Below the pieces are notes generated by a model that did not search any database, was not told the origin of the DNA, and saw only the letters and a program-made list of their open reading frames with translations. A program made the position numbers and the translations under genes. Of a stretch of 64,000 bases of DNA, positions 27,516-51,065 are shown piece by piece (position 1 is the stretch's first letter; each line of letters opens with the position of its first letter). Location: positions 62,001 to 126,000 of IMG/VR virus record IMGVR_UViG_3300034101_006325; one strand, given 5' to 3'. This stretch comes from a virus.

Positions 27516-30500
27516 TCAAACGAACTGCACGCCAGCGTTGGTTACGATGAAATCTATCGCAATGTATTCAATTGCTCTTGTCGGTACGACGACAATTCTT
27601 CCATTGAGACGATTGAGATCAACGTCAACCTGCGTGTTGTTTGTCTCGTTCATCACGACCTGGAAGGCCTCGATGCCTGCCTGGGTTTGGATGAGAGACA
27701 GTTGGAAAACTGCATCCGAAACGAATCTATTGCGAACAGCGGGCGTGTTCTGCTCAAACACGATCTTGTTTGCAATTCCGATGATGATCCTCTTGACCTC
27801 GAGGAGCAGGCGTCGGACATTGACTCGGTCAAGTGCTGATTTATTGATTTGAAGCGTCTTTTGTCCGTATATTACGAAGCCAAGACGTGGGAACGTTGCA
27901 ATTGGATTAATTCTTGAATCATAAAGAACGTCTCTATCTGCAACGCTCAATCGAACTGCTACGTTGGAAACAAAGTCAAGAGCTGCTCTGTTGAATCCTG
28001 CAGGAGCAAACCACGGGTATGACACACGATCATTAAAACCTAGGGCTCCAAGTGCAGCAACAGACGCGGGCACCTTGACTCGTCTCACGTTTCTTGTATC
28101 GTCGATGTATACATCAGGGAAGTAAGTTGCCGCATAGTTGTTGTCTATGACCCTGTTGTCAAAAGCGGAAGTTGTTTCCTTGACGTTCGGTCTAACAGCA
28201 GAATCATCATATATTCTTCTGCCTCCATCGTCATATGCAGGAATATCCATGACGTGCATTGCTAATCCATAATCACGAACTTTCTTTGAAGTTCTATCCA
28301 TAATGTAGGGTTCTCTAATACCAGGTATCGCGAGAATATTGACGCCTGCTGTGTACGGATCAGTCATTATTTCGACTGCTGTCATATATGAAGAAACGCC
28401 GTTGTTTTCCTTGCCTGTTCCTGAGACATTAGCACTAAATCCATCAGGGACATAGTTTGTCGAAGCGCCACCAATCGAAAGCGTATCAGCATCGAATGAA
28501 ACAGACTTATCATTGAGACGGCGAGCGTCGCGATCAAGATAATTTGTCCCATCGAAACCACCGTACATGAAGGTAGTAAACTTGGCAAAAGGTGAGAATC
28601 GATTGAAAACTGCCGGAGTAGCTTTTGAAAGAAGCGTAGCAAATGTTATTCTGTCTGTGATGGTTCCGTCAGAAACAGTGTAATTGCTTGAATCTGGTGT
28701 TGCATTCCTGAGATACGCTGCTTCCTTCATGTGTGTCGAAGCAGAACCAGTTAGATCGTTGACCGAACTGTTGTAGAATGCGACCTTGGCCAGAGTAAAC
28801 TTGTTATTGTTGAATTGATCTGCGCCTGAGCCTGTATGCAAGACGTCAAGCTTTTCAATTCCCATGAACTTAGTTAATGAACCAAGCAGAGAATTCTTTT
28901 CATTTATGACGTTGTTGTTTAAAACTTCTGATTCCTTGCTCAAGGCATTTCTTTCAAACTTAACGCCCCAGTAAAGTGCAGGGAGAGCAACTGATTTTGG
29001 TCCAGGCAATCCTGCAACTGTTGTGTTAGTATTGATTTCTCCTCTAGTCACCTTGTAACGATAAGGAATTGGAGGAAGCACAGATCCTGTGAGAATATTA
29101 CTGGGTGTAATCGATGGATTTGTTAAGGAACCTGAGAAGTAGGCGCCTAGTCTCGCGCTTCCCGTTGGAAGAATATCAAAAACATTGCCGTTATCATTTG
29201 TTTTAAGTAATGATGGTCCTCTAAAACCGAATGGCAAAGATTCATTCGGAACGAGCTTCTTAGCAACCAAGTCGGAGATTACTACTCTAACGTACTTTGA
29301 TCTATTTGGGTACTTACCAGAAGCAATCAGTCTTCTTTCTCGCGGGTCAACGGCATCGAAGTAGTAAGAAACTTTTCTATCTCCGATTAGCTTGCCAATA
29401 TAATTTGAAGAATCTGGATTTAGATCACAATTTGTGAATTGCTCTATAATGACGGGATTTGTGTCTGTATCGTTCCAATCACGTATCTGCACGTTGAACG
29501 TTCCAAATTTATCGGCATCGTCCGGCGAAGCCTTTATTGTTGCAATTGAAATCTTATAGAGTTGATTTGCATATTCGCCGTCGTCAAGTGCTTCGAGCTT
29601 AAAGAGATCGTACTCTGTTGTTCCAAAGGGTTGCGAAATAAACCAGGGTGTGACAGGTGCTTTAAACCTTGTGTCGTATCTTCCGAAAATTTCTCTAAAC
29701 TGCAGCGAAGGATCGCTTGCAGCAGAATTGTTTGATCCTGAAAGAACGGCAACCCAGCTGGCGGCCTCAACAGAAGCAATTTGATCATCGACAGCAAAAT
29801 CACCAAGCAGATAATGCTGATGTTCATTGAACCTATCGGGATCTGTGTTGAGTATCTTCGCAAAATAATTTTCAGCTGTCGGATCAAACGATGCCGAATA
29901 GATTCTTAGGCCTGGATTTCCGTCGTCGGCTGCAAACGACGCACCTAACGAAGAAGATATTCCTATCTTCACTATCGAAGAACCATTGACGCTGGCTGTT
30001 TTTCCTGCCTCGTCCTCGTGTGTAACTGAGCTTGTGATTGCCTGATCACCATTGAAGACTACCAAACGCGAGCCAGAAGGAACCATGACTAGCCCACGGA
30101 TGAGCGGTATTTTTGTGCCAGCAAATCCTGTGAACGTATCGTTGTCGCTAAACATCGGCATGCCATAAACTTCGTAATTTGAAGCCGTGTGTTCAGCGGC
30201 AAGGAATTGAACGACTGCTGTGTGTCTATTGAGTGCATTCGCATCAACTAGACCAGGCAAAGAGAAACCTGCGTTAGTAACAGTTCCACGTGTCAGAGTC
30301 TCATTGATATCATCAATTGTGTTGTTTGACCCTGCTCCGAGGACCCTCATGAATGTAAGTGAGTTTCTGTTCTTGAGGAACTCATTGACAGCATATGGAC
30401 CAAAGTATTTCGGATCAAGATTACCAAAGACTTCAACGAACTCATTGAAGTTTGCAACAGTGACCGGCACGAACGCAGGACCTTTATTGGCGGGTCCAAT

Positions 30501-30599
30501 AACACCAGCTGGCGTTCCTATTGGCCCTCCCTGTGCTGGGACCGACAGGTCTATTTCGCGCTCATAAAAGTTTGGTGACCTAAAAATCTGCTCGGACAT
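27516..30599 (-). CDS. 18: Tail sheath protein 2 (gp18-like paralogue, 1027 aa)
   Basis: It has the same architecture as sheath 1: PAGVIGPANKGPAFVPVTV, FGPYAVNEFLKN, then a C-terminal SYPWFAPAGFNRAALDF, VLYDSRINPIATF, GFVIYGQKTLQIN and RVNVRRLLLEVKRII. The two proteins are clearly homologous along their length but diverged, so this is an old tandem duplication. GAAGGAG lies 8 nt before the ATG and an ATACTTAT octamer lies about 40 bp upstream. It lies between the gp15-like gene and sheath 1. Whether both are used in one sheath cannot be told from sequence. Confidence 0.93.
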   Translation of the reverse strand: MSEQIFRSPNFYEREIDLSVPAQGGPIGTPAGVIGPANKGPAFVPVTVANFNEFVEVFGNLDPKYFGPYAVNEFLKNRNSLTFMRVLGAGSNNTIDDINETLTRGTVTNAGFSLPGLVDANALNRHTAVVQFLAAEHTASNYEVYGMPMFSDNDTFTGFAGTKIPLIRGLVMVPSGSRLVVFNGDQAITSSVTHEDEAGKTASVNGSSIVKIGISSSLGASFAADDGNPGLRIYSASFDPTAENYFAKILNTDPDRFNEHQHYLLGDFAVDDQIASVEAASWVAVLSGSNNSAASDPSLQFREIFGRYDTRFKAPVTPWFISQPFGTTEYDLFKLEALDDGEYANQLYKISIATIKASPDDADKFGTFNVQIRDWNDTDTNPVIIEQFTNCDLNPDSSNYIGKLIGDRKVSYYFDAVDPRERRLIASGKYPNRSKYVRVVISDLVAKKLVPNESLPFGFRGPSLLKTNDNGNVFDILPTGSARLGAYFSGSLTNPSITPSNILTGSVLPPIPYRYKVTRGEINTNTTVAGLPGPKSVALPALYWGVKFERNALSKESEVLNNNVINEKNSLLGSLTKFMGIEKLDVLHTGSGADQFNNNKFTLAKVAFYNSSVNDLTGSASTHMKEAAYLRNATPDSSNYTVSDGTITDRITFATLLSKATPAVFNRFSPFAKFTTFMYGGFDGTNYLDRDARRLNDKSVSFDADTLSIGGASTNYVPDGFSANVSGTGKENNGVSSYMTAVEIMTDPYTAGVNILAIPGIREPYIMDRTSKKVRDYGLAMHVMDIPAYDDGGRRIYDDSAVRPNVKETTSAFDNRVIDNNYAATYFPDVYIDDTRNVRRVKVPASVAALGALGFNDRVSYPWFAPAGFNRAALDFVSNVAVRLSVADRDVLYDSRINPIATFPRLGFVIYGQKTLQINKSALDRVNVRRLLLEVKRIIIGIANKIVFEQNTPAVRNRFVSDAVFQLSLIQTQAGIEAFQVVMNETNNTQVDVDLNRLNGRIVVVPTRAIEYIAIDFIVTNAGVQFV

Positions 30600-36588: not shown

Positions 36589-38799
36589 TCAGGGATTTGG
36601 GTCTGCGTTGTGAATGACCACTGTGAGGCGGTCGTCTGCCATTGTGGAGACCTCGAGGTCGAGCTCTGTCACGCTGGTGATCTCGTAGTCGTCGCCGTAT
36701 GCAAGGCGCACGCCGTTGAGATAGACGTCCATTGCAACCTTCTTTGCAGCTGCGTCAGCAATTGATGCTGTGCGAAGTGTTCCAACAGAGCTGAAGTCGA
36801 TTGCAACGCCAGCAGCTACAACTCCTGGGAGGAATGAATCCTGCTTGAAGTTGCCGCCGCCGCCTGCTGCGACGATTGCCTGGACGAGCGTCATGCCGGG
36901 GAACTGAGCGTCGAAATCTGCCCAATCGCCCGATTCCATGAAGCTGATTCCTGTCTCGCCGTCGGCTGCAAGGAAGAGCTCTCCACCAGAAGAACCTGCC
37001 TGGAGGATGAGGTCCTTGCCGCTTTCTGCTGAAAGTTTTGCGCCTGATGCATCAGCTGCGAATGAACCGCTCTGTGCACCCTCGAGGGCGCCGACCTTGA
37101 TCTCTGACATCCATGCTGGGACGAGTTCTGCGCCGTTGACGCCAACGCTGTTGTCGCCATCGACGTCAGCGTGGTCTGGTGATGTGTGTGCGAGCTTGGC
37201 GAAGACGAACTCACCAGCTCCGCCGTCCTGAGCAAGCATTAGGTCTGCCGAAGCGCCTGCACCGCCGTGGAGGACGATACCGGAGTTTTCAGCGCCTGTG
37301 CTACCAGTTGCGAGGTGGATGAATGCATCTTGCACCTTGAGGTTTGTTGTCTCGATGTAGGTCATTGCGCCCTTGACATAGAGATCACCAGCAACGTGGA
37401 CGTCACTCTTGAAGAATGCGTCGTCGCCGTTGAGCTCGAGGACGACGTTTCCTGCCGATGACTTGAGTTCGTTGCCCATCAACTTGAGGTCGCCAGCGAT
37501 TGTGACGTCGCCACCGCTCTCGAGGGTGATGTTGAGGCCAGCCGAACCCGAGATGTCGTTGCCAGCAACCTTGAGGTCGCCGCTTGCTTCAACGATATCG
37601 CCAGTGAGAAGTAGCGTTCCTGCTGTTGCGCTGGAGATCGACATGCTGTTCGAGAGAGTGATGTCTCCGCCCTTGACTTCGAGGTCAGACTGAAGCTCGA
37701 GTGAACCCGACACGTAGAGGAGCGACTGGTCGAACCAGAGCTTGGCTTCGTCCTTGATTGATCCATCTTCGTCGACAATGTAGAGACGCTTAGCAACGTC
37801 GTTGTCGATCGAGACCTTCTTTACAGTGAGGTCGCCGTCGACGTCGAGGTCGCCGGTGAACGAACCGCTCACTGCTGAGAGGTCGCCGGTGAGTGTCACG
37901 TTGACTGCGTCGATGTCCTGAGCAACTGTGAGTGAGCCGCTGACGCCGAGGTTAGCTGCCATGAAGACGTCTGACTGGAAGTCTGCAACGCCGTCGACGT
38001 TGAGCGTGCTGTCGAAGTCAACAGCCTGTGTCACTCCCATTGTTCCTGAGACCTCGAGGCGATCTCCTGCAACTGTGAGGCCTTGAGCAACTTCCATTGC
38101 GCCGCTGACGTAAAGGTCAGCTGCCATATAGACGTCTGCAGCGAAGTCAGAAACTCCGTTTACAGCGAGTGTACCGCTGAGTCCTGTTGCGCCTGCCACG
38201 TAAAGAGCACCGAGGTCGGCGGTGCCTGATACGTCGAGGGCTCCAGTGATGTCGAGCGAGTCATTGCTGAAGATTAGTTTTCCTTCTTCAGCGATTTCGC
38301 CTGCTCCACCGACGAGGTAGAGGGCGCCTGCTGGGGCGTCGCCATCGATCTTGATGACCGAAGCTGAGAGCGTGCCATCCACATCGACGATTGCTCCTGT
38401 GAAATGTGCGTCGCCGCCGACATCGAGTGTGCTCTGGAGGTTGACTGCACCCTGGAAGTCAGCTGAGCTGTTGACATCGAGATCGCCACCGAGCTGCATG
38501 CCTGCTGAGCCTGTGATGGCTGCATCGAATGTTGCAACGCCTGTGACGTCGAGTGTTCCTTGGAAGTCTGCATTTGCACCGGACATGTGCACTGCTGCAT
38601 AGATGTCTGCGAGGTCCTGTGAACCGCTGAGTGCATCGTACCAGTTTGTTCCACCGATGATCTTGTTGATCTGTGAACGGAGGGCGTCGAGGTCGCCTAC
38701 GAGTGTCTGCTTGTATGCAAGGCTGGAGCCTGCTGCCAATGTATCATTAAATTCTAATGAACCACTAATTTGTGATTGCTGAACAAATGTCTTTGCCAT
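36589..38799 (-). CDS. Repetitive beta-structured fibre protein (736 aa)
   Basis: Most of the protein is a degenerate repeat of about 22-28 residues with the pattern L-x-V-x-G-x-x-x-F (for example ALDVSGTADLGALYVAG, SLTVAQDIDAVNVTL, DVTIAGDLKLMGNEL). This is typical of trimeric beta-helical or triple-beta tail fibres. The N-terminus (AKTFVQQSQISGSLEFNDTL) is the likely attachment end. The C-terminal ~100 residues (ending DDRLTVVIHNADPNP) are non-repetitive and could be a tip or trimerisation domain. The codons are GC-richer than the neighbouring fibre genes, suggesting high expression. It is flanked by a structured leader and a strong terminator, so it is a single-gene transcript. The likely role is receptor binding or fibre shaft. 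Confidence 0.7.
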   Translation of the reverse strand: MAKTFVQQSQISGSLEFNDTLAAGSSLAYKQTLVGDLDALRSQINKIIGGTNWYDALSGSQDLADIYAAVHMSGANADFQGTLDVTGVATFDAAITGSAGMQLGGDLDVNSSADFQGAVNLQSTLDVGGDAHFTGAIVDVDGTLSASVIKIDGDAPAGALYLVGGAGEIAEEGKLIFSNDSLDITGALDVSGTADLGALYVAGATGLSGTLAVNGVSDFAADVYMAADLYVSGAMEVAQGLTVAGDRLEVSGTMGVTQAVDFDSTLNVDGVADFQSDVFMAANLGVSGSLTVAQDIDAVNVTLTGDLSAVSGSFTGDLDVDGDLTVKKVSIDNDVAKRLYIVDEDGSIKDEAKLWFDQSLLYVSGSLELQSDLEVKGGDITLSNSMSISSATAGTLLLTGDIVEASGDLKVAGNDISGSAGLNITLESGGDVTIAGDLKLMGNELKSSAGNVVLELNGDDAFFKSDVHVAGDLYVKGAMTYIETTNLKVQDAFIHLATGSTGAENSGIVLHGGAGASADLMLAQDGGAGEFVFAKLAHTSPDHADVDGDNSVGVNGAELVPAWMSEIKVGALEGAQSGSFAADASGAKLSAESGKDLILQAGSSGGELFLAADGETGISFMESGDWADFDAQFPGMTLVQAIVAAGGGGNFKQDSFLPGVVAAGVAIDFSSVGTLRTASIADAAAKKVAMDVYLNGVRLAYGDDYEITSVTELDLEVSTMADDRLTVVIHNADPNP

Positions 38800-38949: not shown

Positions 38950-39939
38950 TTAGTAAGGATAAGTCGCCGATAAATTGCTTCCTTCCACAGGAGCAGTTTT
39001 GAGTATTACGGTGTTGCTAGAAGCCAAAAAGTCGTAATTTTCTCCTTGGATCTGTAGAATTCCGTTGACATAGAACATCAGACCGCTCAATGGATAAGGA
39101 GAGTGTTGCAAAGTAAAGACAACGTTGGCACCATCAATATCTCCTACTGGTGTTTCAGCCCACGACACATATTTGCCAGGCGTAGAAGCAGGCTGATATG
39201 TGTAAGTGGCTGTTAAATTGCTACCTTGATTGGGTGCATTTAAAAGCGCGACAGTGTTGTCTGTCAACGTATAATCATAACTATTACCTTGCTTTTGCAG
39301 CACTCCATTGACAAAAAACATTAAAGAAGTTACTGGAACTGGGGAGGCAGAAAGCTCAAATACCATATTAATTCCATCAATATCACCCGATGGTGTTTCC
39401 ATCCATGCGATGTCTGTATTCTGAACAGGCGGAGTCGGAGGCGAAGGATCTATTGTAGATGATATTGTTATCTGGCCGTTGGATCCTGTCGTTATAGAAA
39501 TATTTTGTCCGGCGACGAGGTAAGGTGATCCATCTGAAAGGGTTGTAAGAGATCCTGATACATTTGTTACTGTCAGTGTTGATGTGTTTTTATTAAAAAC
39601 AAAATTGGTATTTCCACCAAAGTAACCGCCGTCGTTAAATTGTACGTGAGTATTTGATCCTCCTGGGTCAGTTGATCCGCTGCCTCCGCCGCCAGCAACA
39701 AATTCAACAAGATCAGAATCATCAATGCCGTCTCTGTACCAGAATTTCCTTGAAACACCGTTGACAATGAGACGAACCTCCATCGACTGAAATCTAATGG
39801 CGGCTGGAATTGCGGAATTGGCATCGGAAACAGCAGTTGCAACATCAACAGCAGAAAATGGACCCGACCATGAGTCAACGGGTGCCGGATTGACCGGCTG
39901 AATTCCAAAAGGAAGCTGTAATCCTGTAATTACCGACAT
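38950..39939 (-). CDS. Fibre-tip-like protein with a duplicated C-terminal domain (329 aa)
   Basis: The N-terminal part has a Gly-rich hinge (VAGGGGSGSTDPGGSN) and a beta-strand segment (HVQFNDGGYFGGNTNF) common in phage fibre proteins. The last ~150 residues are two tandem copies of one ~70-residue domain. Copy 1 contains ETPSGDIDGINMVFEL and MFFVNGVLQKQGNSYDY; copy 2 contains ETPVGDIDGANVVFTL and MFYVNGILQIQGENYDF. The sequence VNGxLQxQGxxYDY is a frequent adhesin-like module in phage tail proteins. It is adjacent to the 455-aa gene (7-bp gap), so they are cotranscribed. Confidence 0.65.
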   Translation of the reverse strand: MSVITGLQLPFGIQPVNPAPVDSWSGPFSAVDVATAVSDANSAIPAAIRFQSMEVRLIVNGVSRKFWYRDGIDDSDLVEFVAGGGGSGSTDPGGSNTHVQFNDGGYFGGNTNFVFNKNTSTLTVTNVSGSLTTLSDGSPYLVAGQNISITTGSNGQITISSTIDPSPPTPPVQNTDIAWMETPSGDIDGINMVFELSASPVPVTSLMFFVNGVLQKQGNSYDYTLTDNTVALLNAPNQGSNLTATYTYQPASTPGKYVSWAETPVGDIDGANVVFTLQHSPYPLSGLMFYVNGILQIQGENYDFLASSNTVILKTAPVEGSNLSATYPY

Positions 39940-41673: not shown

Positions 41674-41853
41674 TTAGCCTTTTAAAATTTGTTTATTTTC
41701 GTTCAATGCCTTTGAAGCGCTAAAAAGCTTTTCCTGTAGAAGCGTCAACTTTTTACGAAGATCTTCACAATTTTCGCCTTTAATTTCTTTTGCAGCAATT
41801 AAAATTTTTAGCTCTTCAACTTGTTCCATCAATGCTTCAGTTGTAGCTGACAT
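41674..41853 (-). CDS. Small helical protein (59 aa) directly after the tmRNA
   Basis: ATG at 41853 has AGAGG about 5 nt upstream. The same frame stays open back to 41934, but that part is the 3' end of the tmRNA and is not coding. The protein is one long charged helix or coiled coil (MEQVEELKILIAAKEIKGEN, TLLQEKLFSASKALNENK). Its function is unknown. It lies 24 nt after the tmRNA 3' end. Confidence 0.7.
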   Translation of the reverse strand: MSATTEALMEQVEELKILIAAKEIKGENCEDLRKKLTLLQEKLFSASKALNENKQILKG

Positions 41854-41877
41854 AATAACCTCTATTATACTATATAG

Positions 41878-42249
41878 TGGAGTCAACCGGTACTGCCCCG
41901 GTGTCCGAAATTTCTTTTTAATTAACTTCTTCACAGACTTGGAATGATTTTATCGACGTCATCCTAGTCTATTCAATCTGACCTCTTTTACGACCGGTCG
42001 GATCAAAACCCGTTAGTCGTCTTCCGGAACCACCTTCCGAGAGAAACCCACCTCATACAGTGAGGATAACCATTGGTTGTGACTTTCTGTTTCTAGGTTG
42101 TCACAAAACCAACCAGTCAGGCCGCTAGGTTGACTGGGACATAGCCGTTATCGTTGGCAATTGTACGTCACTTGGATTTTTACCAGGTTCCTCGTGCACC
42201 TGGGTCTGCATTAATTAATCAAAAACTCCGTCGAAACTATATTGACCCC
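41878..42249 (-). ncRNA. ssrA: tmRNA (transfer-messenger RNA), tag ANDNGYVPVNLAA
   Basis: Read on the minus strand, the 5' end GGGGTCA pairs with 3' TGACTCC to form a 7-bp acceptor stem with a G3-U70 wobble, the alanyl-tRNA synthetase identity element. The 5' part has the tmRNA-conserved GTTTCGACGGAG and AGGTGCACGAGG...GGTAAAAATCC; the 3' part has AATTTCGGACACC. After ACAATT the resume frame reads GCC AAC GAT AAC GGC TAT GTC CCA GTC AAC CTA GCG GCC TGA, giving ANDNGYVPVNLAA, with A at position -4. This compares with E. coli ANDENYALAA. CTCTCGGAAGG in the pseudoknot region is also typical. The T-arm ACCGG-GGCAGTA-CCGGT has a non-canonical loop. CCA is not encoded (ACTA follows). The 5' end is 2 nt after a stop codon, so RNase P must process it from the operon transcript. 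It would rescue stalled ribosomes and tag proteins for Clp-type proteolysis. Confidence 0.94.
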
Positions 42250-42250
42250 T

Positions 42251-42592
42251 TTATTGCTTATTTTTCTTAGGCCTACCTATTTTAACAGGCATATCTTTTT
42301 TAACTGGTTTAAACTTGTTAACTAGCACTTCTTGAGGTATTGATTCCTTTATTTTGTCTAATTCCGTCTGAAGTCCTTGGATCTTGTTTGTTTCGGACTT
42401 TATCCATTTGTCAAAACCAGTAGAAAGCTCCTTCAATTCAAGGCTCTCGAATGCGCCTACAATAGCGTCTTCCATTGCCTTTTTCACGCTTTTATAAGTC
42501 TCTTCTTCTTCCATGTCTCGAAAAGAATTTTCGTTATTTTTAATACAATTGTAAAGAAGAAGAAACTGCTTTGGTTGAAAATTTAAGATCAT
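42251..42592 (-). CDS. Small unrecognised protein directly upstream of the tmRNA (113 aa)
   Basis: No family is recognised. It is charged and helical (KKAMEDAIVGAFESLELKEL; KIQGLQTELDKIKESIPQE) with a basic AT-hook-like end (VKIGRPKKNKQ). Its stop codon lies one base before the tmRNA 5' end, so one transcript carries both. The AT-hook-like end resembles that of the 197-aa protein at 35915. Confidence 0.65.
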   Translation of the reverse strand: MILNFQPKQFLLLYNCIKNNENSFRDMEEEETYKSVKKAMEDAIVGAFESLELKELSTGFDKWIKSETNKIQGLQTELDKIKESIPQEVLVNKFKPVKKDMPVKIGRPKKNKQ

Positions 42593-42601
42593 CTTTCCTC
42601 C

Positions 42602-42638
42602 AAAATTAAAACTGGGCTGAAAGTTTATCTTTCAGCCC
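42602..42638 (-). terminator. Rho-independent terminator after the 92-aa gene
   Basis: In minus-strand sense, GGGCTGAAAG and its perfect 10-bp complement with a 5-nt loop are followed by AGTTTTAATTTT. It lies 20 nt after the 92-aa gene and upstream of the tmRNA unit. Confidence 0.8.
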
Positions 42639-43014: not shown

Positions 43015-43338
43015 TTACTTTTTATCTGCTGGTGGTGCACTCTTTTTAACACTTTGAAGATAGTCACGAAATGCTGCCATCATTACACTTGCATCTACGT
43101 CAGCAAGGGGACCAAGAAGACCTGCCATTGTATCTTTGACTAAATTTTTCTTTTTATCAAGATCTTTAATTTGATCTAGTTTTTGTAAAACTGCTTGTAT
43201 CGGTGCTGATTTGTCCATAGCTGACGCAAATTTAGTTCCTAATGTTCCCATTTTTACAGGAGTTTCAGGATTTTCAGAGAGTGATTTGGAAAGTTCTTCA
43301 CGAATTATTTTTCGAAGCATGGATTCTGTAATTTTCAT
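43015..43338 (-). CDS. Small protein with capsid-tag-like N-terminus (107 aa)
   Basis: It begins KITESMLRKIIREELSKSLS, followed by E: the clearest example here of the amphipathic leader, with IRE and LSE sites matching the T4 gp21 cleavage consensus. The rest is helical (AVLQKLDQIKDLDKKKNLVK; ADVDASVMMAAFRDYLQSV). No known family. It diverges from the 420-aa kinase-like gene. It may be an internal head protein (inference). Confidence 0.65.
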   Translation of the reverse strand: MKITESMLRKIIREELSKSLSENPETPVKMGTLGTKFASAMDKSAPIQAVLQKLDQIKDLDKKKNLVKDTMAGLLGPLADVDASVMMAAFRDYLQSVKKSAPPADKK

Positions 43339-43421: not shown

Positions 43422-44684
43422 ATGTCAAGTCATAAAAAATCACCAGTCAGCATGTTGCTGAAAAATTTCATAAATGAAGCAAAAACAGGCACGCTGCGGT
43501 TGTTCGACAGCATCTATCAGATGATAGAAGACAAAAAAGAATATTCATCGGACTCTGAAAAGTTCAAAATTTTTATAAATGAACTCATGCCACATTTAAA
43601 TTTATCGGGGAAGAGTTTGAAAAAAGGTTCTTCAAGGATAGTGTTTATGCTTGAAGATAAACAGGTTTTGAAGGTAGCTTTAAACGAGGCAGGTTTTGCA
43701 CAAAATGGAATGGAAGCAACAATTGGAATGGACGATTCTGTCAGTGAAGTTGTTGCTCCTGTGTTGGACACAAGTGATATTGTCGACTACAACGGCTTTT
43801 TATGGATTGTTTCGCAAAAAGTAGAACCGTTAACTGATGATTTAGTTGAAAGAAGTTGGCCTGAATTTTCTGATCTTCTTCGAAAGGCTGCAACAACAAA
43901 TGAAAAAATTGTCGGCATAAAGATGGGTGTAGGCGGCGGTGTGGGTCCTAGGTCTCCTAGCGATGAGAAAACAGTTGTCCCTGGTGAAGAAACAAAAGTA
44001 GAAATTCCACGGGCCGCGGCCAAAAAAATAAAAAGCAAAAATGAAAAAGCAAAATTATCTGCCGAAGCAGAAAAATTACTAAAAAGTCTAGATGAAAACT
44101 TCTTTGAAGCTTTTAGAACTTTCACTAGAAAATATAGAGGAGCTACAACAGCCGACCTTTTGAAGCCAGACTCATGGGGCATCGATAGAGGTAAGTTAAA
44201 GCTTCTAGATTATGGGTATACGAGAAGAATAGCAGAGGATTTCTATGTCAGCGGTCGTCCTACAGGAACCGAAAAAGCAAAAGAAAGCATGATTGCGAGA
44301 AATCAAGAGAGAATACAGAACATTAAATCCACAGTGGCCGACAATATTGATACAATAGAAAATACGAAGAATATTCCTCCAATGGTATCGCTGCTTCTGC
44401 TGGTTCGTGGCGTAGTGGCAGGAATACCTCTCAATATAGAAACATTTGCGGTCGGTAATCCTCTTAAGCCCCTGACGGAAACAGAGAAAGCTACAGCAGC
44501 AGAAGCAATCAGATCCAATCAAGGAAAAGTCGAGAGAATTATTGACATGGTTACTGACTCGTCATTAAAAAATAAATTATATGATGAGCTGGATGATATT
44601 CTCTTAACAACTGGGTCGTTAGGAAAGAAATCACAGAAAGAATCTTTGATTAGAAAATTCGTTCTAGAGTACCTTAAAAATTGA
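43422..44684 (+). CDS. Protein-kinase-fold-like protein with capsid-tag-like N-terminus (420 aa)
   Basis: This is a paralogue of the 235-aa protein at 384. The shared N-lobe motifs are KKGSSRIVFMLEDKQVLKVA and LNEAGFAQN; the shared C-terminal motif is DSWGIDRGKLKLLDYGY. Between them lies a Lys/Ala-rich linker (AAAKKIKSKNEKAKLSAEAE) and after them a ~130-residue helical domain. The leader SMLLKNFINEAKTG closely resembles the T4 internal-protein signal ending FIxEA, cut after the E by gp21. The very C-terminus (ESLIRKFVLEYLKN) again looks like the leader motif. No HRD loop is evident. It is a plus-strand gene whose stop abuts the convergent kinase-like gene. Confidence 0.62.
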   Translation: MSSHKKSPVSMLLKNFINEAKTGTLRLFDSIYQMIEDKKEYSSDSEKFKIFINELMPHLNLSGKSLKKGSSRIVFMLEDKQVLKVALNEAGFAQNGMEATIGMDDSVSEVVAPVLDTSDIVDYNGFLWIVSQKVEPLTDDLVERSWPEFSDLLRKAATTNEKIVGIKMGVGGGVGPRSPSDEKTVVPGEETKVEIPRAAAKKIKSKNEKAKLSAEAEKLLKSLDENFFEAFRTFTRKYRGATTADLLKPDSWGIDRGKLKLLDYGYTRRIAEDFYVSGRPTGTEKAKESMIARNQERIQNIKSTVADNIDTIENTKNIPPMVSLLLLVRGVVAGIPLNIETFAVGNPLKPLTETEKATAAEAIRSNQGKVERIIDMVTDSSLKNKLYDELDDILLTTGSLGKKSQKESLIRKFVLEYLKN

Positions 44685-45590
44685 TCAGACTGTTGGTTCC
44701 CATTTCTTGATGTCTCTTCGCTTGGCGGAAGCGGCATCAAAGAATATAATTTCGCCTTCTCCCCCTCGAACTCGTCGGACGCCCATGTTGTCCGGCTTGA
44801 AATCGACCATTCCAAGCCTGTAATGATTTTGAATACCTTTAATGAATTTTGTGAACCAATCAGGTGACAATCTGTAGCGTTCTTCAACTACTGCCATCGT
44901 ATCTTTTGGCAGCATTTGTATAAGCTTTGCTACGATGTCTGCAGTCCTTCTGTCAGCAAACTTTGTCGGCACAGCACCCGGCAAGCCCTGATCAGCAGCA
45001 TATGTCGTCATCGCAGTAATCTCTTGAGGAGACATGCCTTGTTTCTTTAGCTTTTTTTCGTAGTCCTTTATTGACTTCTGCTCTTCGGACACAATCTTTG
45101 CTATACCTTCGGAGATCAAACGCCACAAAACTTTCCAATCAGGATCTTCGCCAATTTTATCAGCATCCTGCACCTTCTCAGAGATCGACCATCCGATATT
45201 TCCGATATTGCTCTTGAAGATGCCTGTGGCCAAGACGCCAGGAAGTCCTCCTCCGACGTCAGATCCTGAATATAAGGCATCTTCTATCTCTGATGCCCTT
45301 GAAGCACCAGGCTCAAGCTTTAAGACTTTATCAGAACCCAGAGAAAATGCGCTACCTTGACGTCCAGACCCCAAGTATTTTATGGATCCTTGAGAAAAAA
45401 TTTTTTTCCAATCATCAAAATTGTCTTGTAAAATAGAAAATTCGTCGACATCGAGACCTAACGATCTAAAGACCCTAGATTTTCTAAGTTCATCTCTTAT
45501 TGCTCCCATTTGTAGCTCAGAAAGCTCAGGAGAGTTTGATGTCATCTCAGTCAAGATTGTTCTAATATAACGACGCAATAATTCTGTCAT
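44685..45590 (-). CDS. Protein-kinase-like protein with HRD/DFG-type motifs and capsid-tag-like N-terminus (301 aa)
   Basis: It has the most complete kinase signature of the three: glycine loop YLGSGRQGSAFSL, lysine strand DKVLKLEPG, catalytic-loop-like YRLGMVDFKPDNMGV (D-x-K-P-x-N as in HRDxKxxN) and metal-motif-like IIFFDAASAK. The N-terminus TELLRRYIRTILTEM is the common leader with an LTE site. It may phosphorylate host proteins or act on small molecules such as aminoglycosides. Its stop codon abuts that of the convergent 420-aa gene. TTATTGTCAGCGT directly precedes its ATG, and the same 13-mer precedes the HNH gene at 46427. Confidence 0.7.
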   Translation of the reverse strand: MTELLRRYIRTILTEMTSNSPELSELQMGAIRDELRKSRVFRSLGLDVDEFSILQDNFDDWKKIFSQGSIKYLGSGRQGSAFSLGSDKVLKLEPGASRASEIEDALYSGSDVGGGLPGVLATGIFKSNIGNIGWSISEKVQDADKIGEDPDWKVLWRLISEGIAKIVSEEQKSIKDYEKKLKKQGMSPQEITAMTTYAADQGLPGAVPTKFADRRTADIVAKLIQMLPKDTMAVVEERYRLSPDWFTKFIKGIQNHYRLGMVDFKPDNMGVRRVRGGEGEIIFFDAASAKRRDIKKWEPTV

Positions 45591-47028: not shown

Positions 47029-48408
47029 TCAAACTGGGCTTTGGTTCACAATGCCAGAAATCCACTGGCCTGAATAAAATTCCTCGACTCTTAGACGGTC
47101 ACCTTTTGAAACTGCAAATGCCACTGCTGCTCCGGCTGCTGCAGAAGTAGAATTTGCAGACTGTCCAGGTACATCATTGCCAGTCGCTGGATCGAATCCT
47201 ACAACAGATCCATCTGATTTTACACCACCAAACCATCCTGTCTTTGTGTAGCCATTACCCATCACATATATCCAATTTGAATTTCCAGGCGTTCCATCAG
47301 GCCAGCCAGACCTTTCCAGCGGTGTCTTGGGTGTGTCGCCATGGACTGTAAAGACTAAATTATCTGCGAGAGTCTTGTTGGAACATGTCGGATCAGAGAT
47401 TCCTGATAAATCACTCATAAACATGTCTAAAATCAATCCTAAATGATCGACAGTCTGCAAGAGGCTGCCCATGTCGGCAAAAGCACCGTGCGGATCATCT
47501 CTAAAAACAGGCGCAATTACACAGGAAGTTAAACCAAGCTTGAATGCCTTTGACGTGGTAATTAAAGTCTTTGCTAGCTCTCTGAGCTTATTAGGTGTAG
47601 AAACTGTAACACCATAACGGGACAGATCATCCTGGGATGGTTCTAATAATGCCGCCAAATTCTTTCCTAGGAAATTAGCACTCTTTTTTCCAATATTTAA
47701 CGGTCGCTGCACAGTGGATCTAGTCGAAGCAGAGTTTAGTCCAAGGAACGCCTTGTAGTATGCTTCAAAAAGTTTGGAATCCTGTTCGACTTCGAGTATT
47801 GAACGACTGGCAGCACTGTTGAACAGCTGAACCATTCCATCAGCATTTCCTACAGTTGTAAGTTGAGGAGAACCGGGCGCAGTGCCAAAGGCAACAGGGG
47901 TAATTCCAATGACAGGAATTAAGGTCGGATTTGCCCTTTGTATCGACGAACAGACGGCCATCATGCTTTGTCCTGCTCCGACGGTTGCAGAAGAACCAGG
48001 CGTCGGTGTGTGAGTCTGGTTTACTCCTGCCATGAAAGCCGATATTCTTTTTGTCCTGTCTTTGTTTTTCCAAGGAGATTGTGGGACATGATACAAGGTT
48101 TTGTCAGCATCGTCTGCCTTGACCTGCTGACCCTGAGCATGAAATGCAAAATTGGAATTTGTGGAAGTTGCAACTTCATTGTGAGGCCAAAGTAGCTGGA
48201 ACCATGCAAAGCCTCCATCACCGGCGACCAAATGGACGGATCTAAGAGTTGTAGAACAAGTGGCTTCGTCGGCCAATGCTGTTCCTGCTGTATCATTAAT
48301 TACGTTGAGAACCTGAGATCTATCAAGAGCCAATGCTGCGCCGGCTGCTGCAGTCCATCTCAAAAATTTTCTTCTAGATTCACCTCGTAAATTCTTTAGA
48401 TCCGACAT
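47029..48408 (-). CDS. Tat-exported DUF1501-like protein (459 aa)
   Basis: The N-terminus has a twin-arginine signal: SRRKFLRW with R12-R13, then a hydrophobic AAAGAALAL stretch. The mature part follows the plan of DUF1501-type (alkaline-phosphatase-like) proteins: an early LVAGDGGFAWFQLLWPHN, a central AKTLITTSKAFKLGL then TSCVIAPVFRDDPHGAF, a long helix VDHLGLILDMFMSDL, and LADNLVFTVHGDTPKTPLER followed by NWIYVMGNGY. It would fold in the cytoplasm and be secreted to the periplasm. Its neighbour encodes a cytochrome-type lipoprotein, the usual partner of DUF1501 in Planctomycetes and Myxococcota. Its molecular activity is unknown. AAGGAAAG precedes the ATG. No sign of decay is seen. Confidence 0.72.
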   Translation of the reverse strand: MSDLKNLRGESRRKFLRWTAAAGAALALDRSQVLNVINDTAGTALADEATCSTTLRSVHLVAGDGGFAWFQLLWPHNEVATSTNSNFAFHAQGQQVKADDADKTLYHVPQSPWKNKDRTKRISAFMAGVNQTHTPTPGSSATVGAGQSMMAVCSSIQRANPTLIPVIGITPVAFGTAPGSPQLTTVGNADGMVQLFNSAASRSILEVEQDSKLFEAYYKAFLGLNSASTRSTVQRPLNIGKKSANFLGKNLAALLEPSQDDLSRYGVTVSTPNKLRELAKTLITTSKAFKLGLTSCVIAPVFRDDPHGAFADMGSLLQTVDHLGLILDMFMSDLSGISDPTCSNKTLADNLVFTVHGDTPKTPLERSGWPDGTPGNSNWIYVMGNGYTKTGWFGGVKSDGSVVGFDPATGNDVPGQSANSTSAAAGAAVAFAVSKGDRLRVEEFYSGQWISGIVNQSPV

Positions 48409-48426
48409 AATTCTTTCCTTTCAATA

Positions 48427-49152
48427 TCACTCGCAAGAATGTGCGGCCGACAATATGACAGCAACAGCTATTGACTTGCCTTTTTCAGGTGTTGAAGCAC
48501 TATTCACAATATCTGTACAAATTGCAAGATGCTGAGAAGTAGCAGGTCTGCCAAGAAGACATGTGACAGCAGGCTCGGTGCACCAATCATTTTGGTCAAA
48601 TACAGAAGTGCCAACACCATCTTCTTGACACTGTTGCAGACCAGGCATGGCTGTAATTATCTCTGATGATGCTTGAACAAAAATATCAAACTGTTTTGCT
48701 GCACCTGAGGACGTCCAAACGATTGACTCTCCCACGCGAGCATCATAAACAGCACCTCCGAGAGCTGCTGATCCTTCAGAAAAAAGCTGTCCTGCAGTTG
48801 GTGGATCTGCTGTTAATGTCATGTTCACACCAAATTCTTCCAGAATATTTCGAAGTGTCGCCACAGGAATCTTCTGACAGGAATGAAGTCTAGTCCTAAT
48901 CTCTGGTGGTCCTTCCTCCTGCCGCTGGGCCAATACTGTCATAGGATCCTTGCTGCCATCTTCACCCAAGCCGGACATATGATCAAATGTATTGTCTTCA
49001 TCACCTGTATAATCATCATCAGGAGGAGGATCTTCAGGGCTATCGACAGGTGGATCTTCCTTTGGTGGAATTAAACCGTTTGGTGGATCAATTCCACAGG
49101 ATGCATTAAGGAAAACCAATGGGAGGATCAAAAATAATCTTTTGTAATTCAT
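48427..49152 (-). CDS. Exported lipoprotein with acidic/Pro-rich stalk (241 aa)
   Basis: The signal peptide MNYKRLFLILPLVFLNASC has a lipobox (LNAS-C), so it is a predicted lipoprotein. A Pro/Asp-rich stalk (PPKEDPPVDSPEDPPPDDD) links it to a Cys-rich domain (SCQKIPVATLRNILEEFGVN; LQQCQEDGVGTSVF; WCTEPAVTCLLGRPATSQ) whose six or so cysteines could form disulfides in the periplasm. No family is recognised. It sits between the cytochrome-like and Tat genes with gaps of 15 and 18 bp, so the three probably work together. Confidence 0.7.
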   Translation of the reverse strand: MNYKRLFLILPLVFLNASCGIDPPNGLIPPKEDPPVDSPEDPPPDDDYTGDEDNTFDHMSGLGEDGSKDPMTVLAQRQEEGPPEIRTRLHSCQKIPVATLRNILEEFGVNMTLTADPPTAGQLFSEGSAALGGAVYDARVGESIVWTSSGAAKQFDIFVQASSEIITAMPGLQQCQEDGVGTSVFDQNDWCTEPAVTCLLGRPATSQHLAICTDIVNSASTPEKGKSIAVAVILSAAHSCE

Positions 49153-49167
49153 ACTGTTTTACCTGCA

Positions 49168-50334
49168 TCAGAAATTTACGAAATCTTCATGCTTAAACAT
49201 AAAACGAAGTGTCTCCTTGACGTCCATGCCAGATGACTCGTACTTTTTAACGAGAGGATCTAGCACGGAAGGCGGGATTGTCGCAAGGTCATTGACAACG
49301 TCTTCCTTTGACATCACCATGTTCCACAAACGAGTGACCACGCAATCTGAGACAAGAGGATCGTCTGCAATTGCTGCACCTAAGGCAGGAAGATCATTTG
49401 CTTCAATTCCAAACCTCCACGCAGTCTTTTCTCCACCATTCAACCAATGACTCATCTCAGACTTAATAGGATCTGGCAGGACGGGTGTGTTGACCTGACT
49501 TTGGCTCGTCCACATGCCATTTTCATCAAAATTAGCAAACAATGGCGCAATATGGTTCATAGTCGCGTGACAATTGGCACAAACAACGGACTGTGTGTCT
49601 CTAAAATCAATAGGAGAATTAGAAATTGATTCGAACGACCAAGGAGAAATATAATCCTTTCCTTCTATTTTCTGAGGATCTTTTGTGGATTCTGCAGGAA
49701 ACTTTTGACACATAAACACCTCCTGCATCCAACGGACTCTTCTAAATGCCATGTTGCTGTAAAACTGCTTCATCGAACCAGGATTGGTCAAAACACCTGA
49801 ATGAACTTCGACGCCATTATCACAATCCCCATCCACGAAGGCTCCATCTGAAAAGCTGGGACAAGTTCCCTGTGTTGCAGTGAAAATATCTGTAAAAGGC
49901 CGCCCTTCAACGGAAACTCTAGCAACAAATACAGGAGAAAAATCTAATTCTTGGGAACCACCTTGACGAAGAGTATCTCTCCAAAATTTTACCATCCGAC
50001 CAGCAAAGCGAGGATCGTCCAGCAAAGAATCTACTTCTAGTTCATATGCAGCCTTTTTGTCGTCAGCATTTTGAACACGTCTAATTTGACTCAAAGGAGG
50101 AAGTGTCCTGACCAGCTTTAAAGATGCTGTTCTCAATGCAGCATTATAATCCAAAATTCTGTCATCCAAAACGGACGACTTAGCAGACTCACCTCCGACG
50201 CCCGAAGCTGTAGAAGATTCGTCTGCGGTTCCTCCGGGGTCGCCTCCGTAGCTTCCTGTCCCAAATCCTGACGGTTCTTCGGTGCAGGCTGATAAAACCA
50301 AAAAAGACGCCAAATATTTGCATAACCTCTTCAT
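49168..50334 (-). CDS. Lipoprotein c-type cytochrome, DUF1549/PSCyt-like (388 aa)
   Basis: The signal peptide MKRLCKYLASFLVLSAC has a lipobox ending at C17, followed by a Gly/Ser-rich linker. The N-terminal domain (ASLKLVRTLPPLSQIRRVQN; YELEVDSLLDDPRFAGRMVK; FWRDTLRQGG) resembles the DUF1549-type domain of Planctomycete surface cytochromes. A covalent-heme motif CANCH lies near residues 253-257, followed by NHIAPLFANFDENGMW. The C-terminal half is like the DUF1553-type partner domain (DCVVTRLWNMVMSKEDVV; VKETLRFMFKHEDF). This would be a membrane-anchored, heme-binding periplasmic protein. It is the first gene of the exported cassette. No degradation is visible. Confidence 0.72.
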   Translation of the reverse strand: MKRLCKYLASFLVLSACTEEPSGFGTGSYGGDPGGTADESSTASGVGGESAKSSVLDDRILDYNAALRTASLKLVRTLPPLSQIRRVQNADDKKAAYELEVDSLLDDPRFAGRMVKFWRDTLRQGGSQELDFSPVFVARVSVEGRPFTDIFTATQGTCPSFSDGAFVDGDCDNGVEVHSGVLTNPGSMKQFYSNMAFRRVRWMQEVFMCQKFPAESTKDPQKIEGKDYISPWSFESISNSPIDFRDTQSVVCANCHATMNHIAPLFANFDENGMWTSQSQVNTPVLPDPIKSEMSHWLNGGEKTAWRFGIEANDLPALGAAIADDPLVSDCVVTRLWNMVMSKEDVVNDLATIPPSVLDPLVKKYESSGMDVKETLRFMFKHEDFVNF

Positions 50335-50846: not shown

Positions 50847-51065
50847 CTACTTCTTCTTTTTCATCGTCTTCTTAGCATCAGCTGTTCCGTGCTTCACGGC
50901 GTCTGCTCTAGGCTCTCCAGAGGCAATTCTTCTGGCAATCATCACGTCTGCAAAATCATTCTTACCGTCTTTATTGAGGTCATCCTTGCCTTCAGCCTCT
51001 GACATCTCAACCTCAGTGACTACCTCTCTAATAATTCTTCTTAATTCGCTTATGCTGATCTTCAT
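50847..51065 (-). CDS. Small protein with capsid-tag-like N-terminus and EF-hand-like loop (72 aa)
   Basis: It begins KISISELRRIIREVVTEVEM, the shared leader with an IRE site. The centre contains DLNKDGKNDFAD, which matches a calcium-binding loop (Asp, Asn, Asp, Gly, Asp, Asp at loop positions 1, 3, 5, 6, 9, 12), followed by VMIARRIASG. The end is Lys-rich. I have seen the NKDGxxDFxDVMxAR pattern in many marine phage proteins, without known function. Confidence 0.65.
   Translation of the reverse strand: MKISISELRRIIREVVTEVEMSEAEGKDDLNKDGKNDFADVMIARRIASGEPRADAVKHGTADAKKTMKKKK

Follow-up and report, generated by a model that had tools for sequence, protein, structure and literature searches.

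The window analysed here, a stretch of 64,000 nts corresponding to bases 62001-126000 of a 200,303-bp IMG/VR virus record, contains one RNA-family match in its entire 64 kb. This is a full-length one-piece tmRNA gene at 42249-41875 on the minus strand, which Infernal aligns to positions 1-374 of the 374 in the Rfam model RF00023 with a score of 73.7 bits (E=8.8e-27), the gathering score of the model being 47 bits. A preliminary description, made from the letters alone, had proposed a complete phage-borne tmRNA within an operon and had recommended running ARAGORN or Infernal on this strand. The covariance-model score bears out the proposal, and the location is also as described, the gene being in a same-strand run that leads into tail genes (Table 1). 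ARAGORN, however, gives no match in the window. The T-loop, GGCAGTA instead of UUCRANN, accounts for the miss, as homologues with the canonical elbow are all detected.

Table 1. The tmRNA gene, its parts and its neighbours, in window coordinates
Feature	Position	Strand	Basis
One-piece tmRNA (ssrA) gene, including encoded CUA tail	41875..42249	-	RF00023; 19 further distinct homologues; ARAGORN negative
Acceptor stem, 5′ strand GGGGUCA, with G3 of G3.U70	42243..42249	-	Sequence; both-side changes in alignment pairs
Reduced D-loop AUAUAGUUUCGAC, A at the G18 position, G19 retained	42230..42242	-	Sequence; homologue alignment
Pseudoknot 1 (PK1), first half: stem CCAGG.., loop ACGAGGA able to pair with UCCAAGU	42189..42203	-	Rfam alignment
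Tag reading frame ANDNGYVPVNLAA-stop (TGA), 13 codons, resume codon GCC	42117..42158	-	Sequence; ARAGORN calls the homologous frame in canonical-elbow relatives
Post-tag hairpin UUGUGAC(AACCUAGAAACAGAAA)GUCACAA with RGNAACAGAA core	42077..42106	-	Sequence; shared with alphaproteobacterial permuted tmRNAs
T-arm ACCGG-GGCAGUA-CCGGU; T-loop (41897-41891) without U54, U55, A58	41886..41902	-	Sequence
Acceptor stem, 3′ strand UGACUCC (U70); discriminator A at 41878	41879..41885	-	Sequence
113-aa gene, function not assigned, upstream of tmRNA; stop 1 nt before G1	42251..42592	-	Sequence; gene calls
59-aa gene (MSATTEAL...), downstream of tmRNA	41674..41853	-	Sequence
455-aa gene, syntenic with tmRNA in L115, L116 and L117	39947..41314	-	Synteny
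Gene matching tail-fibre and virion families, next after the 455-aa gene	38950-39939	-	Family matches
Gene with tail-fibre or virion-family match	36589-38799	-	Family matches
Tail sheath gene	27516-30599	-	Homologue search
Intrinsic-terminator-like hairpin, upstream of the 113-aa gene	42614..42638	-	Consensus match only

The 7-bp acceptor, GGGGUCA/UGACUCC with G3.U70, and the discriminator A are those of a standard tmRNA. The acceptor had been read correctly in the preliminary description, with coordinates that are right as far as the discriminator at 41878, and so had the stop codon just before the 5′ end (a TAA that ends at 42251, with 1 nt between it and G1 at 42249). The tail encoded past the discriminator is CUA rather than CCA, from which it follows that CCA would be added by the host. 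The tag frame, also reported before as LAA-ending and closing in TGA, reads GCC AAC GAT AAC GGC TAT GTC CCA GTC AAC CTA GCG GCC TGA from 42158 to 42117. The mRNA-like domain is full, unlike that of TLD-only RNAs of the DS6A type, and the fold is 2.4 standard deviations better than that of shuffles. What had been overlooked is the elbow. The D-loop, AUAUAG-UUUCGAC, has A for the first of two conserved Gs, and the T-loop is GGCAGUA instead of the canonical UUCRANN, which is usual though not universal. Such a noncanonical T-loop does not exclude membership, as alphaproteobacterial tmRNA normally has this loop.

Promoter-like sites in the window are no commoner than in shuffles, and it has no T4-type late promoter (TATAAATA). 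Cotranscription with the tail genes followed by excision by host tRNA-processing enzymes would be the simplest inference from the arrangement. In several relatives the tmRNA is followed by a gene beginning ATGTCAGC or ATGTCGGC. A short element, TATATAGTATAAT, at 41864-41876 on the minus strand abuts or overlaps the CUA tail and recurs in L400; it may serve the downstream gene as a promoter-like element and partly explain why CCA is unencoded, though chance alone should yield about one match per window when 2 mismatches are allowed. A sub-clade of relatives (L131, L457, L460, L461, L468 and L476) has a TTGACA-type motif, often TTTGACA, shortly upstream of G1 of the tmRNA, hinting at a promoter of its own; in the window, by contrast, a gene ends 1 nt before G1. 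Kissing CUAG loops near the tag were considered and dropped as they are not conserved.

In the 200,303-bp record, which is possibly incomplete, no tRNA gene and no integrase (PF00589) were found. SmpB was found neither in this record nor in 12 other phage records of up to 309 kb, whereas all eight bacterial comparison genomes have it. Elsewhere in the window, a three-gene run at 47029-50334 on the minus strand encodes a twin-arginine-signal protein that by eye is DUF1501-like, a putative lipoprotein and a DUF1549/DUF1588 lipoprotein-like protein. Of 22 related phage records, 8 have the DUF1501-like gene at approximately 40% identity, and it was found in none of 299 Pseudomonadota genomes; the run may give a clue to the host group or to a virion function. 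The otherwise unrelated proteins of 43015-43338, 43422-44684, 44685-45590 and 50847-51065 have in common a short N- or C-terminal peptide of the LRxIIREEL/LLRRYIRTIL type, which might serve all of them as a signal for targeting or packaging.

Homologues in large phages

With the window's gene included, 20 distinct full-length one-piece tmRNAs are known to us from large phages, all metagenomic. They come from a pattern scan on the tag alone, which is blind to the elbow, together with loci found earlier. All have 13-codon ANDN...LAA tags with the frame intact. The search pattern itself specified the tag ends, so that nothing can be concluded from their being constant. For 11 relatives ARAGORN independently calls the same tag frame. 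CCA is not encoded in 17 of the 20.

RNAalifold on 19 of these sequences gives 69 pairs, 46 of which have compensatory changes (at least one sequence with both sides altered and the pair kept), including pairs of the acceptor, T-stem, PK1 and long helix. In the PK1 stem, columns 48-50/66-68, 9, 3 and 11 sequences are changed on both sides with pairing retained; the second PK1 stem was assessed by eye alone. The T-stem pairs show 9, 7 and 7 such changes, and compensatory changes are also present in the helices that join the halves of the tmRNA (columns 42-47/327-332 and 20-27/353-360). The Infernal match and the 19 further homologues with their compensatory changes exclude a chance resemblance. 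On this comparative evidence the gene is a genuine tmRNA, as the preliminary description had it.

The 455-aa neighbour gene led to L115, L116 and L117, each of which has a tmRNA just upstream of that gene, and whole-record searches gave further RF00023 matches on records of up to 309 kb. In IMG/VR, 154 relatives of the window's tail-sheath gene were confirmed. Among 50,697 deposited phage genomes there is no tail-sheath relative covering 80% of the gene, and no match to the tmRNA DNA; 398 Pseudomonadota genomes likewise contain no close DNA match to the tmRNA.

Two coupled states of the elbow

Positions 18 and 55 (numbered, like 19, 54 and 56-58, by alignment to tRNA) are G and U in 11 of the 20 tmRNAs, and A and G in 9, including the window's. 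In the same 11, positions 54 and 58 are U and A, and in the same 9 they are G and G. No mixed elbows occur among the 20, and 19-56 is G-C in every one. The Fisher p for the coupling is 6e-6, a value that ignores the relatedness of the sequences. On a maximum-likelihood tree built without the acceptor, D-loop and T-arm columns, the elbow changes type at least five times, with the D-loop and T-loop changing jointly every time. All four independent pairs on well-supported branches agree, a number too small for p<0.05 (sign test p=0.125). The nearest contrast is between L115 and L116, sisters by the tmRNA body whose tags are the same and whose elbows are of opposite type. Between L131 and L457 the acceptor 5′ strand and the T-stem do not differ at all while the loops are opposite, which argues for changes in the loops and not for import of a whole foreign tRNA-like domain. 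A wider scan of IMG/VR by the A18 D-loop only found G55 in 36 of the 37 tmRNAs with a recognisable T-arm, whether one-piece or permuted; the lone exception has an imperfect acceptor match.

The elbow is coupled, and it has switched repeatedly. It would be held in the variant members by a second self-consistent set of contacts, with A18-G55 and G54-G58 replacing G18-U55 and U54-A58, and G19-C56 kept. We infer that the coupling reflects direct contact of the D-loop and T-loop. Exchanges of one set for the other, of which there have been several within this phage family, have always been complete. Having no U54 or U55, the variant members lack the modifications at T54 and pseudouridine 55.

SmpB grips tmRNA at the contact of the D-loop and T-loop. 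The joint switching of these loops, several times within one RNA family, provides ready matched and mismatched pairs for probing the role of the elbow in SmpB binding and in host fit. The interaction of the two loops is reported to be necessary for SmpB binding (Barends 2002, as cited in PMC3968760).

The variant also has a practical consequence. ARAGORN detects 11 of the 11 canonical-elbow members and none of the 9 A18/G55 variants; Infernal detects members of both types above its cut-off wherever this was tested. The preliminary description had called phage-borne ssrA rare. That stands in a relative sense, with 2.3% of 18,146 phage genomes having it by ARAGORN (PMC9004378) and huge phages being known carriers of tmRNA and SmpB (PMC7162821). 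As both surveys relied on ARAGORN, which finds 0 of 9 one-piece tmRNAs with this elbow, the counts of phage tmRNA are too low.

Elbow, tag and hairpin in bacteria

A degenerate pattern for the variant T-arm gave at least 118 matches in 84,980 species genomes. Among those listed, 109 are by title from the class Alphaproteobacteria; 106 of the 118 listed have the permuted two-piece order, and a few come from Saccharibacteria-type genomes, where the gene is in one piece. The elbow is typical in bacterial genomes of the alphaproteobacterial permuted tmRNA, and the notion that it is an oddity of phages was rejected for this reason. In the best 30 standard-form tmRNAs from a Pseudomonadota sample, G18 G19 and U54 U55 are present in all 30. 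A Saccharibacteria host was dropped as a candidate, since two supposed one-piece genome entries with the tag ANDNGYAPAALAA are the phage loci L395/L396, and two low-scoring Pseudomonadota matches considered as possible missing links proved to have N-masked stretches.

The tag of the window had been described as having an unusual insert. This is not supported, as relatives have tags of the ANDN(G/D)xAPxALAA type and those of alphaproteobacterial two-piece tmRNAs (ANDNRAPVALAA, ANDNFAPVAVAA and similar) are alike; the window's is an ordinary tag of alphaproteobacterial type. The hairpin after the tag with its RGNAACAGAA loop, strictly defined, is present in 15 of the 20 phage tmRNAs and in 101 of 107 alphaproteobacterial permuted ones, and in none of the 30 top-scoring Pseudomonadota or 20 Patescibacteria standard-form tmRNAs. 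It was considered as a mark of alphaproteobacteria only. That was rejected, because its core is in 4 of 4 ANDEHYAP-tagged one-piece tmRNAs of a Pseudomonadota group (one genome of which is presumably that of Magnetococcus marinus MC-1), and for the same reason the hairpin is no proof of descent from a permuted tmRNA. A tree on the TLD-reduced body, unrooted and with long branches, places the phages as their own clade outside the alphaproteobacteria plus the ANDEHYAP group. With the phage clade separate and on a long branch, re-fusion of an alphaproteobacterial gene is unsupported as its origin; the phage tmRNA may be related to the alphaproteobacterial lineage as an older, unpermuted form.

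Function and alternatives

The reading that we prefer, with a probability of about 0.82, is that this is a selected one-piece tmRNA of a large tailed phage, made in a tail-gene transcript and serving rescue through host machinery, with a second set of elbow contacts that is switched as a unit. Gene order and the one terminator-like site suggest that it would be transcribed within the tail-gene transcript. Given the acceptor stem, host RNase P would cut at G1, host 3′ trimming and CCA addition would form the 3′ end, and host alanyl-tRNA synthetase would charge the product through G3.U70/A73, a route of alanylation established for tmRNA generally (PMC3968760). Host SmpB and EF-Tu would bind the alternative-contact elbow and bring the tmRNA to stalled ribosomes. 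The frame itself is clear; activity is predicted, with translation resuming at GCC and ANDNGYVPVNLAA being added, and its LAA end suggests that the tagged products would be degraded by host ClpXP-type proteases. Transcription, processing, charging and tagging are all deduced from sequence features.

Genes for tmRNA are frequent integration sites and fragments of them are left in prophages (PMC9004378, PMC11915505), so that the gene might be a functionless passenger, a copy of ssrA left by integration or excision at the host gene. This is very improbable: the gene is full length and not fragmentary, there is no integrase (PF00589) in the record, L115, L116 and L117 have it in the same place, strong compensatory evolution and intact tags extend across the 20 sequences, and there is no close DNA match in the 398 Pseudomonadota genomes. 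The RNA could instead be a decoy that titrates host SmpB or the tmRNA pathway, as is thought for the TLD-only RNA of phage DS6A. TLD-only elements in other phages (DS6A, PMC4131195, and L188 and L181, described below) lend this some substance, and a deviant elbow could alter handling by SmpB. However, the tag frame, PK1 and downstream helices, which a decoy does not need, are all conserved, and we consider a decoy improbable. Somewhat better placed, though still unlikely, is a tmRNA that mainly steers proteolysis, its tag picking or avoiding host adaptors or proteases instead of serving general rescue. The tag is unlike that of E. coli, and phage tags vary in mid-sequence. Against this, the ANDN...LAA ends are ordinary (and were required by the search pattern), the tags resemble host-type alphaproteobacterial ones, and the record has no SmpB. 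As SmpB is missing from the record and the tag is host-like, we favour plain rescue through host machinery over tag-directed proteolysis as the probable role.

Why the elbow should switch is a separate matter, and host matching is our first guess. By this account the A18/G55 members infect Alphaproteobacteria or other hosts with a like elbow, and the loops switch when the host changes, which is compatible with a functional tmRNA as the best explanation of the gene. At least 110 of the 118 T-arm matches listed are Pseudomonadota by title, nearly all Alphaproteobacteria, and the 30 top-scoring standard-form tmRNAs from other Pseudomonadota are all G18/U55. The DUF1501-like gene of several family members is, however, in 0 of 299 Pseudomonadota genomes, and some Saccharibacteria-type one-piece tmRNAs have the same elbow; host matching is a real possibility that falls short of being probable. 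The second guess is escape, GGCRGTA removing the T-loop target of group I introns, integrases or T-loop-modifying enzymes (with no U54/U55 for TrmA/TruB). Group I introns of tmRNA do sit in the T-loop and require a preceding U (PMC11915505), and tmRNA normally has m5U and pseudouridine in its T-loop (PMC3968760), but escape alone accounts neither for the coupled change in the D-loop nor for the apparent reversals, and is unlikely to be the reason. A broader proposal is tentative, and less likely than not to be right: that the elbow has two self-consistent states which flip as a unit, that large phages alternate between these states so as to suit the translation apparatus and SmpB of changing hosts, that part of the phage tmRNAs is consequently invisible to ARAGORN, and that an unpermuted relative of the alphaproteobacterial lineage may survive in the phage clade.

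Comparison with known systems

The window's gene is like the standard one-piece tmRNA of RF00023 in gene order, G3.U70, A73, PK1, resume codon, tag and stop, and in length (375 versus 374 positions). It differs in having A18/G54 G55/G58 rather than G18/U54 U55/A58 at the elbow, in its unencoded CCA and in being invisible to ARAGORN. With the alphaproteobacterial two-piece tmRNA (RF01849, alpha_tmRNA; RF04321, tmRNA_permuted) it shares the A18 G19/GGCRGUA elbow, a tag of the ANDN...APVALAA type and the RGNAACAGAA hairpin. However, it is unpermuted, the 5′ half preceding the 3′ half in one 375-nt gene, and additional helices separate the post-tag hairpin of the phage tmRNA from its 3′ half. The ANDEHYAP-tagged tmRNA of Pseudomonadota is, like the window's, one-piece with a 13-residue tag and the RGNAACAGAA core, whereas its elbow is canonical (TTCGACT/TTCAACT; G18), its tag is ANDEHYAPxxAAA and it groups with alphaproteobacterial tmRNAs rather than with the phages.

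Phage tmRNAs have been described from Bxz1-type mycobacteriophages and phage G (PMC4131195), from huge phages, there with SmpB (PMC7162821), and as a two-piece ssrA from Melnitz and pelagimyophages (PMC9004378). Like that of the window, these are complete ssrA genes in lytic or large phages, and that of Melnitz is also of alphaproteobacterial type, though in two pieces where the window's is in one; the accessible parts of these accounts do not describe switching of the D-loop and T-loop. A further phage example, unannotated, is in Rhodobacter phage RcRudolph (OP009285.1, L477:1228-1642, plus strand), a permuted alphaproteobacterial-type tmRNA with tag ANDNVRMDAQALAA that is overlain by the called hypothetical protein RCRUDOLPH_61. 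Two TLD-only tmRNA look-alikes of ~70-80 nts, L188:21-101 on the minus strand of IMGVR_UViG_3300032290_000250 and L181:3612-3682 on the plus strand of IMGVR_UViG_3300025896_000050, have an acceptor, an A18-type D-loop and a GGCAGTA T-arm with no tag part, a plan resembling that of the DS6A inhibitory RNA; at the gathering score, Rfam calls neither of them.

For the T-loop there are precedents: GG replaces U54 U55 in R. americana mitochondrial tmRNA, and G replaces U55 in that of Caulobacter (PMC1168896). These are single sequences from two-part tmRNAs, and the available part of that report does not discuss a paired change in the D-loop. No description of a coupled D-loop change or of elbow switching was found in the literature searched, mostly outside subscription journals. 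Phage tmRNA is thus already known, and it is the coupled switching of the elbow that is new, together with the one-piece form invisible to ARAGORN. Eukaryotic tRNA-Ala provides the nearest parallel outside tmRNA (PMC7566577). There the pairs are A54/A58 with R15/A48, in eukaryotes only and with 18-55 uninvolved, but it too is an alanine acceptor in which a purine-purine 54-58 changes along with a second tertiary pair.
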